64,000 nt of DNA. Source: Roseovarius arcticus (GTDB taxonomy: Bacteria > Pseudomonadota > Alphaproteobacteria > Rhodobacterales > Rhodobacteraceae). The stretch lies in contig NZ_SZZN01000001.1 of assembly GCF_006125015.1 (NCBI RefSeq), positions 1,054,001-1,118,000 of the forward strand, given 5' to 3'. Positions 15,165 to 36,848 of the stretch are shown one piece after another (position 1 is the stretch's first letter; each line of letters starts with the position of its first letter). The translations under genes and the position numbers were made by a program. The notes beneath the pieces are model-generated. The model did not search any database, was not told where the DNA came from, and worked only from the letters and a program-made list of their open reading frames with translations.

Positions 15165-16466
15165 TCACCCCCTGAATGCGCGCGCGAAATAGTCCGAAAG
15201 CGGTTTTACCAGATACGCCATGGGCGTCATGTCGCCGGTACGAAAGAACGCCTCGACAGGCATGCCGGGGACCAACTTGGTATTATCCGGCAGGCGGCGG
15301 CGCTCGCTGTCGCTGAGGGTGATGCGGGCGCGGTAATAGCTAGCGCCGGTGCCCTCGTCGCGAAATGCGTCGGCCGAAACTTGCATGACCTGACCCATCA
15401 ATTCCGGCGTTTGGCGCTGGTCCAGAGCCGAGAAGCGCAGGATCACGTCCTGACCGGGATGCAGAAGATCAATGTCGGTTATCGGCACCTGCGCTGTAAT
15501 GATTAGCGGGCGGTCTTGCGGTACGATGTACAGAATCGGATCGGCAGCGCGCAGCACCGACCGAGGCGCAAAGATCTGCAGGTCGTAAACCACACCCGAC
15601 ACCGGGGCCACGATCTCTAATCGGCTAAGTTTTTCGAGCAGGGCCGCGCGTTTCTCGCGCAGCTCCAGTTCGCGGTATTGCAGATCGCGCAGGGTGCTGA
15701 TTGCCTCTTCGCGGCGGGTAGCGCCAAGTTTCAGCCGCTCAATTTCGATCTCAGTGATGCGCCCCTCGGCCTGTGCCTTTTGCGCGGTCAACTCGCCCAG
15801 CGTGCCAGCCATGCGCGCCTCTTCGCGGCGCAGCGCCAATAGGCGCGAGACCTGCGTCAGCCCTCTGTCCAGCAGCGATTGCTGCGTCACGCGTTCCTCA
15901 ATAATCAGATTGCTCTGCTGGCTCATTGACGCTTGCTGTGCCTCGATCCCTTTGATCTGATCAGTGATCTGGATCCGGCGCTTGCCCAGTTGCGCAATCT
16001 CATTGCCTGCGGTCTCGGCCCGCGCAGCCAAAAGGCGGGCCTGGCCTTCCATCAGTTCGGCGGCGATGGGGCGTGTTTGAGCCAACTCCTGCAATAGAGG
16101 ATCAAAGGTGATGGCGCTGCGGTCGTCGCGCTCGGCCTCAAGGCGCCCGCGCCGCGCCATCAGCTCGAACAGCTGGTTTTCGGTGATGGTTAGCTGCGAG
16201 GCCTGCAGGGCGGGGTCGAGTCTGAGCAACGTGTCACCTGCCGCGACGCGCGCACCCTCGGCCACGAGGATCGCCGCGACCACGCCGCCGTCTGCGTGCT
16301 GGACGACCTGCCGGTTCTGAGCGACTTCGACCTTTCCCTGCGCGATGATTGCGCCAGCAAGGTTTGCAAACCCCGCCCAGATGCCGAAGCCCCCTAATAG
16401 GACCACCAGACCCGCGATCCCGATGCCGATGGGCCAGCGGGCAGACCAGTCGGACGCGCTGCTCAT
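15165..16466 (-). CDS. Type I secretion membrane fusion protein (HlyD/PrsE family)
   Basis: This 433-residue periplasmic adaptor has one N-terminal membrane helix (about residues 13-37), a biotinyl-lipoyl-like half (GKVEVAQNRQVVQHADGGVV), a long alpha-helical hairpin (about 100-265) and a beta-barrel domain with APVSGVVYDLQIFAPRSVL. It links the inner-membrane ABC exporter to an outer-membrane TolC channel. The start overlaps the stop of the upstream ABC gene by four bases. No substrate or TolC gene is present in the window. Confidence 0.9.
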   Translation of the reverse strand: MSSASDWSARWPIGIGIAGLVVLLGGFGIWAGFANLAGAIIAQGKVEVAQNRQVVQHADGGVVAAILVAEGARVAAGDTLLRLDPALQASQLTITENQLFELMARRGRLEAERDDRSAITFDPLLQELAQTRPIAAELMEGQARLLAARAETAGNEIAQLGKRRIQITDQIKGIEAQQASMSQQSNLIIEERVTQQSLLDRGLTQVSRLLALRREEARMAGTLGELTAQKAQAEGRITEIEIERLKLGATRREEAISTLRDLQYRELELREKRAALLEKLSRLEIVAPVSGVVYDLQIFAPRSVLRAADPILYIVPQDRPLIITAQVPITDIDLLHPGQDVILRFSALDQRQTPELMGQVMQVSADAFRDEGTGASYYRARITLSDSERRRLPDNTKLVPGMPVEAFFRTGDMTPMAYLVKPLSDYFARAFRG

Positions 16467-18196
16467 TGCGCACCCCCTTGGCTGACCGATTGCACGATCT
16501 GGGTACGGTTGCGCACGACGTCGCGCAGTACTTCGTCGCGAGGACCGAAGCTGCGTACCTGTCCGCCCTCCAACACTAACAGAAGATCACATTCCTTGAT
16601 GGCCGCAGGGCGATGGGCCATGATTAGAATGGTCTTGCCCGCCGACTTGAAAGCACGGATTGCGCTATTCACGGCCTCGCTGCCCTCGTTATCCAAGTTT
16701 GAGTTTGGCTCATCCAGCACCAAAATTACCGGATCGCCGTACATTGCGCGGGCGAGCGCGATGCGTTGCATCTGGCCGCCCGATAGACGCCCGCCCCCGG
16801 CGCTGATTTCAGTGTCGTAGCCACCCGGCAGCTTGAGAATCATGTCATGCGCATCAGCGCGTTTGGCTGCGGCGACAACCTGCTCGGCATCGGGATCTGT
16901 CGAAAGGCGCGCGATATTCTGCGAGACGGTCCCGGCAAAGAGCTGCACGCGCTGCGGCAGATAGCCGATATGCTGCCCCAGCGTATCGGGCGCAAACTGC
17001 TCCAGCGTAGCGCCGTCCAGCCGAATCTTGCCGGCCGCGGGTGGCCAGATGCCTGTGATCGCGCGGGCCAGCGAAGATTTGCCCGCGCCCGACGCGCCGA
17101 TGACACCCACAGCCTGTCCCGGCTCCAGCGCAAAGGTGACGCCGCGCAGCGTCGTCTCTCGCTCTCCCGGTGGGGCGATGAAGAGGCCTTGCACCTCTAG
17201 ACGCGCCTTGGGTTTGGGCAGGGCCGTACGCTCGGTCTCGGGGGGCACTTCGGCCAGCAGGCGGCCGAGGCCGAACCAACCGCGTATGGCGCGCTGCACC
17301 AATGGCCATTGTCCGACCAGCTGTTCTATCGGGGCTAGTGCGCGACCCAGAAGGATCGAACCTGCGATCATTGCGCCTGCTGTCAACGCATTCTGCAGCA
17401 CCAGCCATGCGCCGAGGCCTAGCATCGCCGATTGCAAGAACAGTCGAAACGTTCTGGTTGATACATTAAAGCTGCCTGCCCAGTCTGACGCGCCGATATG
17501 CTGTTTAAGAGCCTCCGAGCGTGCGGTTTGCCACCTGTCGAAGGCCGCACTGCGCATGCCCAAGGCCTGCACCGCCTCGGCCTCGGACCGGATTTCGGCG
17601 GCCATCACATCGGCTGCGACGCTGGCCTCGCCTGCGGCAGCCAGCGAGCGGCGCGTCGCCAGCTGGTTGAGGACCGCCAGTACGATCAGTAACGCACCGC
17701 CCAAGAGGGCGAGCATCCCAAGCATGGGGTGGAATATCCAGATACCCAGCAAAAAGAGCGGCGTGAACGGAATGTCGAAGGCGGACGTCAGCACCGAAGA
17801 GCTCATTAGCTGCTGCACCGATTGCAGATCGCTGAGGCCTGTCGCGTCGCTCTGATCCGGCCTGCGTGCCGATTTGCGCAGCACCGCGTCAAACACCCGC
17901 CGCTCTAGCAGCGACTGAAAGCGGGCGCCGGCCCGGATCATGACGCGGCTGCGCGCAAAGTCTAGAATACCCATTATGCCAAAGAGGAATGCGGCCAGAA
18001 GCGTTAGCGCCACCAACGTCTCGACCGAACGGCTGCCAAGCACCCGGTCATAGACTTGCAGCATGTAGATCGGTCCGGTCAGCATCAGCAGGTTCACAAA
18101 AATACTGAAAATGCCAACGAACCAATACAGCGGCCGCGCGGCACGGCGCGCCGCACGCAATTCTGGCAGGCCTGCGTTGGAATGGGTTGAACTCAT
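16463..18196 (-). CDS. Type I secretion ABC transporter, permease/ATPase (PrsD family)
   Basis: This 577-residue half transporter has an N-terminal membrane domain with about five or six helices (residues 25-300) and a C-terminal nucleotide-binding domain. The latter has Walker A GASGAGKSS, signature LSGGQMQRIALARAM and Walker B VILVLDEPN. There is no C39 peptidase domain, so it belongs to the group exporting RTX proteins or proteases. The start at 18196 lacks a strong ribosome binding site. It forms an operon with the membrane fusion gene. The cargo is not encoded nearby. Confidence 0.9.
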   Translation of the reverse strand: MSSTHSNAGLPELRAARRAARPLYWFVGIFSIFVNLLMLTGPIYMLQVYDRVLGSRSVETLVALTLLAAFLFGIMGILDFARSRVMIRAGARFQSLLERRVFDAVLRKSARRPDQSDATGLSDLQSVQQLMSSSVLTSAFDIPFTPLFLLGIWIFHPMLGMLALLGGALLIVLAVLNQLATRRSLAAAGEASVAADVMAAEIRSEAEAVQALGMRSAAFDRWQTARSEALKQHIGASDWAGSFNVSTRTFRLFLQSAMLGLGAWLVLQNALTAGAMIAGSILLGRALAPIEQLVGQWPLVQRAIRGWFGLGRLLAEVPPETERTALPKPKARLEVQGLFIAPPGERETTLRGVTFALEPGQAVGVIGASGAGKSSLARAITGIWPPAAGKIRLDGATLEQFAPDTLGQHIGYLPQRVQLFAGTVSQNIARLSTDPDAEQVVAAAKRADAHDMILKLPGGYDTEISAGGGRLSGGQMQRIALARAMYGDPVILVLDEPNSNLDNEGSEAVNSAIRAFKSAGKTILIMAHRPAAIKECDLLLVLEGGQVRSFGPRDEVLRDVVRNRTQIVQSVSQGGAQ

Positions 18197-18537
18197 GCTG
18201 GACTTTACAACTTGTGAAAAAAGGAACTCAGGCGTCGTCGAACTTGCTGGCAATCGCGCCGCGCCCTAGAATCCGCCCAGCCAATATCCTTAATTCTATG
18301 GCTATAGAGCTGCATCAGGTTGCCTGAACGACGCGGCGCGGTCTGTATCGCGGGCACGGCAGGCATCACTAACCGGGTGGAGCGGCGCAATATTGATTTC
18401 ATTGCACTACGAGAGGACGAAGCTTGCAACTACAGAGCATTGAAAAATTGATACAAATAGCGGGAGGACCCAACTACAGCCCGCCGCCCGCGATGAATCG
18501 TTGCACCCCAATTTCAAATCCGCCACACTGAGCATCC
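18197..18537. other. Intergenic region between prsD-like gene and the cobalamin riboswitch
   Basis: These 340 bases hold the divergent promoters of the secretion operon and the riboswitch transcript, but no promoter could be fixed with confidence. A TTG-started frame of 35 codons (18424-18531) follows a GAGAGGA sequence, but its translation resembles nothing I know. GC content is lower than in the flanking genes. Confidence 0.4.
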
Positions 18538-18716
18538 AAGGTGCCGCGTATCCGCGCGGAGAATTGGGAAGCCGGTGCAAATCCGGCACTGCCCCCGCAA
18601 CGGTAAGGGTGGGCGAGACGGCGATATGCCACTGGGCCGCGAGGTCTGGGAAGGTTGCCGGATCATGGGCTTTGCGCCCGGCCCCTCAAGTCCGGAAACC
18701 AGCCTTGGACTGACGT
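18538..18716 (+). ncRNA. Cobalamin riboswitch
   Basis: The conserved elements are all in order: GGGAAGCCGGTGCAAATCCGGC (first half at 18566-18580, second at 18581-18587), then CTGCCCCCGCAACGGTAA, the B12-box core GCCACTG at 18628-18634, GGGAAGG, and AAGTCCGGAAACC at 18688-18700. These are the hallmarks of the adenosylcobalamin-sensing RNA. It lies upstream of an 87-codon gene on the same strand. A possible expression hairpin follows: CTCTC at 18779-18783 can pair with GAGAG at 18813-18817 in the ribosome binding site, with CCCC and GGGG pairing inside. This suggests translational control, with low cobalamin giving expression. The outer borders are approximate. Confidence 0.92.
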
Positions 18717-18825
18717 CAAACCGCGGGGGGCGGTGCGGGCGCTGTTGGTGGTAATCCGCTCTACAGCCTTTGCGCATCCTCTCGCCCCATCCGGTCCGGG
18801 GGTGTGGCCGAGGAGAGTAGAATAG

Positions 18826-19089
18826 ATGAGTGTTTCGCAGATATTAAGCGGGCTGGAGCGCAGCGATGCGACTGGCCCCGATGCCGATGCCGCCGCGCGT
18901 ATGGGATTTCTGGAATGGGCCTTTGGGCTAGCAGGAGCGGCTACACCAGAGGCCGCGCGCGCGGCGCTTGATGCGGCGCCTGCGCCAGCTGAAAGTGCGG
19001 CGGCGCAGGCCTTTATCGGGTATTTGCATCAGGCCAGCGCCCATGTCACGCGCCCGGTGCGCCGTGGCCGCGCCGCGCGGATGCACTAA
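18826..19089 (+). CDS. Orphan small protein under cobalamin riboswitch control (87 aa)
   Basis: This alanine-rich, mainly helical protein of 87 residues has no signal peptide, no membrane helix and no cysteine or metal motif. The segment GFLEWAFGLAG (residues 26-36) is the most structured, and the C-terminus is basic (VRRGRAARMH). GAGGAGAG stands a few bases before the ATG. It is the only gene behind the riboswitch and stops seven bases from the convergent znuB. I do not recognise the family. The riboswitch implies a role tied to cobalamin shortage, such as supply, sparing or salvage; that is inference from context only. Confidence 0.7.
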   Translation: MSVSQILSGLERSDATGPDADAAARMGFLEWAFGLAGAATPEAARAALDAAPAPAESAAAQAFIGYLHQASAHVTRPVRRGRAARMH

Positions 19090-19095
19090 GCTAGG

Positions 19096-19890
19096 CTATG
19101 CGCGCCGAAGCGCCGCGATGACGCTTGATCCTGCGAACAAAATCGCGCTGACGCAGACAATTGTCGGCCCCGTCGGTGTGTCCAGCGCATAGGACGCGTG
19201 CAGGCCCGCCCAGGCGGCAGTCATTGCCAGAAGGGTGGCGGCCACGGCCATGCCCTCTGGCGTGCGGGCAAAGGGACGGGCGGTTGCGGCTGGAATAATG
19301 AGCAGCGCAGTGATCAACAGGGCGCCGACCACCTTGATCGCGACCGCCACCACTATGGCAAGCGCGAGCGTCAGGATCAGCTCCTCGCGTCGCGGGTCGA
19401 TCCCGGCGGCGCGGGCCAAATCGGAGTCTAGCGTGGCCGTCAGCAGCGCGGACCAGCGCCAGCAAACGAGGCCCAGCACCAGCGCCGCGCCGCCCCAGAT
19501 CACGCCCAGATCACCGCGCGACACCGATAGGATGTCGCCAAAAAGAAACGACATGACGTCGATCCGCACCCCGTGCAGGAACGACACGCCCACCAGTCCG
19601 AACGCCAGCGCCGAGTGGGCCAGCACCCCCAGTACCGTATCCACGCCGCGTCCCCGCCCAGACAAAAGCGTCACCAGCACGGCCATTGCCAGCGCTACGA
19701 CCAGCGCCCCGGCGAAGATCGGCAGCGATAACGCGAGCGATAGCGCCACGCCCAAGATTGCGGCATGGGCTGTCGCATCTCCGAAATAGGCCATACGCCG
19801 CCACACAACAAAGCAGCCCAGCGGGGCGGCGGCCAACGCCGTGCCTATCCCGGCCAGCGCCGCGCGCACCATGAAATCATCCAAGATCAT
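19096..19890 (-). CDS. znuB: Zinc ABC transporter, permease
   Basis: This 264-residue integral membrane protein has about eight hydrophobic segments and the family signature GDATAHAAILGVALSLAL (residues 37-54) typical of the ABC-3 metal permeases. It forms the membrane channel of high-affinity zinc uptake. GAGGAGAA precedes the ATG at 19890, and the start overlaps the znuC stop by four bases, so the two are translationally coupled. The whole zur-znuC-znuB unit should be repressed by Zur. Confidence 0.93.
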   Translation of the reverse strand: MILDDFMVRAALAGIGTALAAAPLGCFVVWRRMAYFGDATAHAAILGVALSLALSLPIFAGALVVALAMAVLVTLLSGRGRGVDTVLGVLAHSALAFGLVGVSFLHGVRIDVMSFLFGDILSVSRGDLGVIWGGAALVLGLVCWRWSALLTATLDSDLARAAGIDPRREELILTLALAIVVAVAIKVVGALLITALLIIPAATARPFARTPEGMAVAATLLAMTAAWAGLHASYALDTPTGPTIVCVSAILFAGSSVIAALRRA

Positions 19891-20645
19891 GGGCGGTTCT
19901 CCTCTGCGGCGTGTTCGTGCCCACACTCCTCGCCATGCACATGGTCATGGTGATGACGGTAGAGCGCCAGCGCACCTTGCGTGCCCTCGCCAAAGAGGGC
20001 GCGGTAGACGGGCGCTTCGGCCACTACCTCGGGCGCTCCCTCGCAGCAGACATGCCCGTTCAGGCAGATGACGCGATCCGACGCGCTCATCACTACGTGC
20101 AAATCGTGGCTGACCAGCAGGACGGCGCAGCCGGTGTCGCGGCGCACATCCTCGATCCGGCGATAGAATGACGCGGCGCCGGGCTGGTCTAGCCCTGCCG
20201 CGCCCTCGTCCAGCATCAGCAGGTCGGGGCGGCCCAATATGGCGCGGGCCAGCAGGACGCGCTGGAATTGCCCGCCCGATAGGTCGGCCATGGGCTGCGC
20301 TGCGATATCGGGCACGCCCGCCCGCTCTAGCGCGGCGCGCGCCTCCGCCGGTGCGACGCGGCGGGGCAGTCCCAGAAAACGAGCAACCGAAATTGGCAGC
20401 GCAGGGTCCAGCGCCAGACGCTGCGGCACATAGCCGAATGTCAGACCGGGCCGCCGCGTGATGCGCCCGGCACTGGGCCGAACCCCACCGAGCAGCGCGC
20501 GCAGCAGGGTGGATTTGCCCGAACCGTTCGGGCCGACGATCGTGACAATTTCGCCGGGGGCGATGCTGAAGTCGACATTCTCCAGCACCAACGCGCGGCC
20601 ATGGCGCACGCCTAGTCCCCTTGTTTCTATCAGCGGCGCGGTCAT
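19887..20645 (-). CDS. znuC: Zinc ABC transporter, ATP-binding protein
   Basis: This 252-residue ATPase has Walker A GPNGSGKSTL (about residues 37-46), Q-loop YVPQRL, signature LSGGQFQRVLLARA and Walker B LLMLDEG. The C-terminus carries a histidine-rich tail (YRHHHDHVHGEECGHEH), common in ZnuC proteins and presumably a zinc store or sensor. The start overlaps the zur stop (ATGA) and znuB follows in the same way. The frame is open further upstream, but that part belongs to zur in another frame. Confidence 0.93.
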   Translation of the reverse strand: MTAPLIETRGLGVRHGRALVLENVDFSIAPGEIVTIVGPNGSGKSTLLRALLGGVRPSAGRITRRPGLTFGYVPQRLALDPALPISVARFLGLPRRVAPAEARAALERAGVPDIAAQPMADLSGGQFQRVLLARAILGRPDLLMLDEGAAGLDQPGAASFYRRIEDVRRDTGCAVLLVSHDLHVVMSASDRVICLNGHVCCEGAPEVVAEAPVYRALFGEGTQGALALYRHHHDHVHGEECGHEHAAEENRP

Positions 20646-36671: not shown

Positions 36672-36755
36672 CAAAAAAAAAGGCCGAGCGCTAGGCCCGG
36701 CCATAGTCCAACAGGGAGGTATGACGGTGGCGCCGTAGCGGCGCTCCCGTCAAGA
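36672..36755 (-). ncRNA. Candidate small RNA with CCUCC core and its own terminator
   Basis: On the minus strand a strong hairpin (GACGG ... CCGTC enclosing GCGCCG-CTA-CGGCGC, 36723-36751) is followed by a single-stranded-looking region containing ACCTCCC, then a seven-base-pair terminator stem (36682-36702, one GU pair) and nine Ts (36673-36681). A TTGATC, about 17 bases of spacer and TATTTG lie just upstream and could be the promoter. CCUCC can pair with ribosome binding sites, as in several known alphaproteobacterial small RNAs. It may instead be the 3' end of the upstream LysR mRNA. Confidence 0.5.
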
Positions 36756-36848
36756 GAGCAAATAAAGCCTCCGTTCGGACCGATCAAGTGAAATAAACAA
36801 ATTCATCAGCATGGCCGCTATGCGCCCAATGCATAGCAGCCTGATATG

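Follow-up and report, generated by a model that had tools for sequence, protein, structure and literature searches.

A conserved small gene behind a putative cobalamin riboswitch in Roseovarius and other Rhodobacteraceae

In Roseovarius arcticus, a full-length putative cobalamin riboswitch, assigned by its RF00174 score, precedes a single gene for an uncharacterised protein of 87 residues, and the pairing of riboswitch and gene recurs across the genus. Comparison of homologous sequences marks the small gene as real, and it is a member of the cobalamin regulon, seen here only in Rhodobacteraceae. We tentatively read its product as an accessory of the cobalamin economy, serving either B12 trafficking during starvation or methionine synthase as an adaptor; the observed basis of this reading is the riboswitch, the conservation of the gene, the linkage of the two and the neighbouring genes, and from these we infer the direction of control, the partner and the biochemical role. 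By the window we mean the whole stretch of 64,000 nt that was analysed.

Results

An initial annotation, made from the letters of the window, had described a complete cobalamin riboswitch followed by a single small gene with a proper ribosome-binding site. The cobalamin model bears this out: cmscan covers all 189 model positions, scores 122.4 bits where the gathering threshold is 31.5, and corrects only the start, which had been placed at 18538, 16 bases inside the aptamer, to 18522 (Table 1). The conserved stem GCCACTG...GGGAAGG, which we take to be the B12 box, is GCCACTGGGCCGCGAGGTCTGGGAAGG in the window's aptamer. The open reading frame at 18826-19089 was confirmed as well; it is monocistronic in the window, begins 104 nt past the aptamer and has GAGGAG, the likely ribosome-binding site (18810-18815), 10 nt upstream of its ATG.

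Table 1. Features of the riboswitch and small gene and their flanks in the window.
Feature	Position	Strand	Basis
Type I secretion ABC protein-like open reading frame, left neighbour	16463-18253	-	Read by eye
Putative cobalamin riboswitch aptamer (RF00174)	18522-18721	+	cmscan 122.4 bits, E 3.3e-30, model 1-189 of 189
Linker (expression platform), aptamer end to start codon, 104 nt	18722-18825	+	Sequence
CTCTC, 5' arm of possible helix over the ribosome-binding site	18779-18783	+	Pairs with 18813-18817
Conserved platform core GCCCCATCCGGTCCGGGGGTGTGGCC	18784-18809	+	Degenerate pattern in 25/25 compared sequences
Likely ribosome-binding site GAGGAG (18810-18815) and 3' arm GAGAG (18813-18817)	18810-18817	+	Sequence
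Gene for 87-aa protein	18826-19089	+	ATG start; homologues, dN/dS, AlphaFold2 model
ZnuB-like zinc ABC permease, convergent, outside the unit	19096-19926	-	PF00950 E 9.6e-68; ZnuB NF007089 242.5 bits, below the 284 cut-off

The linker between aptamer and start codon measures 92-130 nt in 24 relatives. Its core, found as GCCCCAuCCGGCCCGGGGUGUGGCC in many of the 25 sequences compared, has a single match in the window at up to three mismatches, where none is expected. An OFF structure had been proposed in which CTCTC pairs with GAGAG over the ribosome-binding site. Both arms are present and can pair, and in all 25 sequences the stretch before the core could form 3-9 bp with the ribosome-binding region (5 bp in the window). 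However, when partners were swapped among these sequences, 348 of 2000 permutations reached the observed mean pairing, so that neither sequence-specific pairing nor covariation for the switch helix was found in this set. Judged from the sequence, translational control through a covered ribosome-binding site is plausible. The genome carries one further cobalamin riboswitch (L027), which also matches RF00174 (120 bits) and has a leader end that by eye resembles the window's, with GCCCCACCG..CGGGCGTGACCGGAG before the start codon; it precedes a btuB-like receptor gene and then a btuF-like gene (both read by eye), whereas the riboswitch of the window precedes one small gene.

A search with the single sequence found 33 homologues, the named ones mostly from Roseovarius, and a profile built from 40 sequences found 333 related proteins at E ≤ 1e-3. 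Among the matches listed, homologues are 83-123 aa long, apart from one of 72 aa and one of 157 aa, and dN/dS values of 0.06-0.22 in seven chosen species pairs indicate purifying selection on the gene. The lengths (with these two exceptions) and the selection on the frame rule out that the gene is the remnant of a longer one, a reading that the initial annotation had put up for testing.

As that annotation had stated, the protein is uncharacterised: the window protein has no match in Pfam or NCBIfam at E ≤ 1. The best hit of seven typed homologues (including one glnE-type paralogue) against Pfam had an E of 0.11, and that of 92 aligned members against NCBIfam an E of 0.036, with one member each for three families; both are at chance level. 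No precomputed Pfam domain falls on the 120 of the 333 profile matches that were listed. A B12-independent isoenzyme was looked for, and the 40-member set (83-103 aa) had no match to an enzyme family among the families scanned; the small size of the protein makes a direct enzymatic role seem unlikely. One family member (P0044, from Rhodobacteraceae bacterium HLUCCA08) is deposited as 'B12-responsive hypothetical protein', and the B12 link of the family had thus already been noticed by its depositors, as a record name only; a literature search found no paper describing P0044 or this naming.

The pairing of riboswitch and gene was followed through three sets: 24 named loci outside the window's genome, 84 genomes of the genus Roseovarius, which overlap the named loci, and 388 genomes of the family Rhodobacteraceae. 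An RF00174 match lies upstream of the relative gene at every one of the 24 named loci. Within the genus, the gene (called at E ≤ 3.4e-12) is present in 69 of the 84 genomes and has RF00174 directly upstream in 66 of these, 45 taken from listed riboswitch matches, 18 from cmscan of extracted stretches and 3 from a GCCACTG..GGGAAGG stem with the protein motif behind it; no riboswitch was found by the gene in a 12-kb stretch of G278 or in 1.3-kb stretches of G751 and G752. Gene-less genomes of the genus have exactly one riboswitch in 14 of 15 cases, whereas 67 of the 69 gene-bearing genomes have two or more (Fisher p 5.5e-13), and the split persists when genomes less than 90% complete are left out (two or more riboswitches in 62/63 gene-bearing vs 1/9 gene-less genomes, p 6.7e-9). 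The gene and its riboswitch are lost together in the genus.

Family-wide, 42 of the 388 genomes carry the gene. The riboswitch is directly upstream in 37, and in two more (L133/L148 and L147) it leads an operon whose last gene is the small one; none was found for three homologues (L047, L055 and L143), the first of which is the gene of G278 and is counted in both the genus and the family set. RF00174 itself is nearly universal in the family (118/120). In a class-wide sample of 289 genomes searched for the small gene, only the window's own genome matched. The predicted co-occurrence of riboswitch and gene therefore holds in the named loci, the genus and the family. The initial annotation had also raised the opposite prospect, that the riboswitch drives another gene in relatives; other genes come first in two family genomes, L133/L148 and L147, where the small gene is last. 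At L047 and L055 (G041) the gene persists after uvrD and no riboswitch was found, a possible case of natural loss of control.

What the organism does with B12 can be sketched from its gene content. Searches of the window's own genome found no CbiC and neither MetE nor core-MetE (PF01717), which makes it probable that the organism takes up B12 from outside and requires it to make methionine, non-synthesis being judged from the one marker CbiC. A canonical MetH activation domain is present, as are matches to NrdJ-type ribonucleotide reductase, a B12-dependent enzyme. One NrdJ-type match lies at G000:C1:1120207-1122576, about 2 kb past the window's right end, in a frame of 1234 codons. Across the genus, 12 of 17 CbiC-less and 57 of 67 CbiC-bearing genomes have the small gene (p 0.17, no association), and the gene therefore does not follow B12 synthesis. 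Nor was an association seen with MetE or core-MetE, which occur in 13/69 gene-bearing and 6/15 gene-less genomes (p 0.09).

We next turn to the genes around the small gene in relatives, which we called ourselves, counting as neighbours those on the same strand within 250 nt and checking ten proteins against Pfam and seven against NCBIfam. In 9 of the 42 family genomes, the small gene shares a likely operon with metH, mtgE/bmt-like, gbcAB, BtuF-like or zinc-type transporter genes, which supports the earlier suggestion of a cobalamin-related protein; in 33 of the 42, its operon showed neither B12 nor methionine genes that we could recognise. The metH halves lie downstream of it in L122 (244 nt), L136 (114 nt) and L139, and an mtgE/bmt-like homocysteine methyltransferase gene (PF02574) follows it in L060. 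BtuF-like genes (PF01497) come after it in L058 (20 nt), L138 (5 nt) and L123, where the start of the BtuF-like gene overlaps and the order is riboswitch, small gene, BtuF-like gene and a gene for a DUF71 protein. This last protein (PF01902, ~225 aa) belongs to another family, with no relation to the small protein seen; excerpts of a published analysis give DUF71/COG2102 proteins a predicted role in B12 salvage (PMC3541065). In L147, GbcA/GbcB-like genes precede the small gene, with GbcA and GbcB as best NCBIfam matches, below cut-offs. Genes resembling gbcA-gbcB for glycine betaine monooxygenase stand behind cobalamin riboswitches in L147, L127 and L136 (checked by profile in L147 only). Other close same-strand neighbours are not evidently linked to B12, such as an MFS-type transporter gene in L125 (84 nt behind the small gene) and a lipoprotein-like gene in L053.

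Another gene closely behind, as in L123, L138, L058, L060 and L125, is also what one would expect if the frame were a mere translated leader, linking the riboswitch to whatever gene comes next, an arrangement suggested for B12 riboswitches with uORFs of Mycobacterium tuberculosis in excerpts of one report (PMC11260477). We regard this as very improbable. The convergent gene in the window ends 6 nt past the stop codon and leaves nothing downstream to couple; the amino-acid sequence is under purifying selection; and in L133 and L147 the small gene is the last of its operon.

A closer tie to metH was also considered. Eleven family genomes have both the gene and the canonical MetH activation domain; in 5 of them the two lie within 6 kb of each other, with gaps of 3.0-5.9 kb (chance ~1e-9, in a test made after the adjacency had been seen and hence descriptive, not independent). 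Near but outside the unit, metH is found in L127, with a second riboswitch and gbcAB-like genes between (by eye), and in L142, where it is divergent. Such proximity might suggest that MetH, the canonical cobalamin-dependent methionine synthase, has the small protein as a dedicated subunit, but a search for the MetH activation domain found none in 31 of the 42 genomes with the gene, and we think this reading improbable. Gene presence shows no association with canonical MetH (PF02965; 11/42 vs 57/346 other genomes, p 0.13). This independence fits the split system reported for roseobacters: in the portions of the reports consulted, species such as Phaeobacter inhibens and Ruegeria pomeroyi are without metH and use the split system (PMC12478193, PMC5764234, PMC12366255).

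In the window itself the neighbours are zinc-uptake genes, not B12 genes, as had been noted at the outset. Right of the small gene lie znuB-like, znuC-like, zur-like and znuA-like genes, whose NCBIfam scores are below curated cut-offs and whose Pfam matches ABC-3, ABC_tran and ZnuA are above them, with FUR 0.1 bit below. The small protein might support zinc-dependent homocysteine methyltransferases, or zinc import, when B12 fails. The convergent Znu-like genes would suit this reading, as would genome G342 (L133/L148), where the small gene is the last of a riboswitch-led operon for a zinc-type ABC transporter; the transporter's binding protein matches PF01297 (AztC-like, below cut-off), and its ATPase and permease were read by eye. 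Yet among those of the 24 named loci that were listed, L003, a close relative, is alone in sharing the window's Znu-like neighbours (by eye), the zinc-type operon was seen once among 42 family genomes, and no metal-ligand set is conserved, the only near-invariant candidates being a His at the C terminus of one subgroup and a single Cys in the other. A tie to zinc is, in our view, a long shot. At the G342 locus (L148, G342:C81:9000-17000, reverse strand), a zinc-type transporter with a ZnuA/AztC-like binding protein is an unusual target for a cobalamin riboswitch. Elsewhere in the window, the minus strand holds a match to the singlet-oxygen-resistance RNA family SorX (RF02784) at 36676-36760, barely above threshold (47.3 bits vs a gathering score of 46.6).

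AlphaFold2 predicts helices at residues 3-12, 18-34, 41-50 and 58-71 of the window protein with good confidence (pLDDT 83.9 overall), followed by a C-terminal tail of low model confidence, with blocks of pLDDT 61 and 51; a member of 100 aa is modelled with the identical helix order plus a short terminal helix (pLDDT 81.0). The second helix holds a G-F-L-E-W / G-Y-M-Q-W motif, and the tail is Arg-rich, RRG(G)..R. In all 40 aligned members charge is split, the last 18 residues carrying a net +4 to +7 and the remainder 0 to -7. These models describe a soluble, helical protein with a basic tail.

This tail raises the possibility of a regulator, for instance one that binds RNA through it and during B12 shortage shifts expression of B12-dependent or alternative pathways. 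The invariable charge split, the low model confidence of the tail and the fact that the small gene stands alone in the window are consistent with such a role. No nucleic-acid-binding family, however, matched the window protein or the further members scanned, and comparison with solved folds gave no significant match, which speaks in neither direction. We consider a regulator unlikely, though less so than the subunit and zinc readings above. No match in Pfam, NCBIfam or the solved folds offers a biochemical clue to the small protein.

One other small family probably is related to the riboswitch-linked one by sequence. Its members (L043-L045, ~90 aa), also from Rhodobacteraceae, are encoded downstream of what by eye looks like a glnE frame, share the F-L-x-W motif and the RRGG tail, and match in a profile-profile comparison (hhalign 96%, E 3e-9, 57 columns) that uses only three sequences, themselves recovered through the profile of the riboswitch-linked family. 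Unlike that family, they have no riboswitch that we could find.

Discussion

We favour, with some reserve, a small protein that serves as an accessory of the cobalamin economy. By analogy with the usual behaviour of this riboswitch class, the protein would be made when cobalamin is low, and its ribosome-binding site would be shut when cobalamin is high. It might then bind a partner in B12 salvage or in the homocysteine-methylating system, whether MetH or the split Mtg/Bmt enzymes, and partner binding could improve the use of scarce cobalamin or of the cobalamin-dependent methyl flow. The gene is retained in most genomes of the genus in which CbiC was not found, so that a role in uptake, trafficking or allocation is likelier than one in synthesis; its metH, mtgE-like, gbcAB-like, BtuF-like and DUF71 neighbours suggest a place in methyl transfer and salvage.

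Among the closest described systems is the split methionine synthase / glycine betaine demethylase MtgBCDE of roseobacters; some relatives have metH or an mtgE/bmt-like gene in what is probably one operon with the small gene. The small protein is nevertheless not among the subunits, nor among the RamA-like or DUF1638 reactivation proteins, that are named in the excerpts of the reports on this system (PMC12478193, PMC5764234, PMC12366255).

A narrower version of the accessory role, which we offer as speculation and think unlikely as it stands, is a dedicated roseobacter adaptor that would be made only in B12 shortage and would supply homocysteine-methylating corrinoid enzymes with cobalamin or with a reactivation partner. 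Its role, though not its sequence, would parallel that of animal cobalamin-trafficking adaptors.

Marine bacterial communities are shaped by how much B12 is available, and roseobacters are found among both its producers and its consumers. A conserved gene that is wired to cobalamin through a riboswitch, is retained in most CbiC-less genomes of its genus and disappears along with that riboswitch argues for a step in the use of B12 that has yet to be described. Knowing what its product does would reveal how bacteria divide limited B12 between methionine synthesis and other enzymes.
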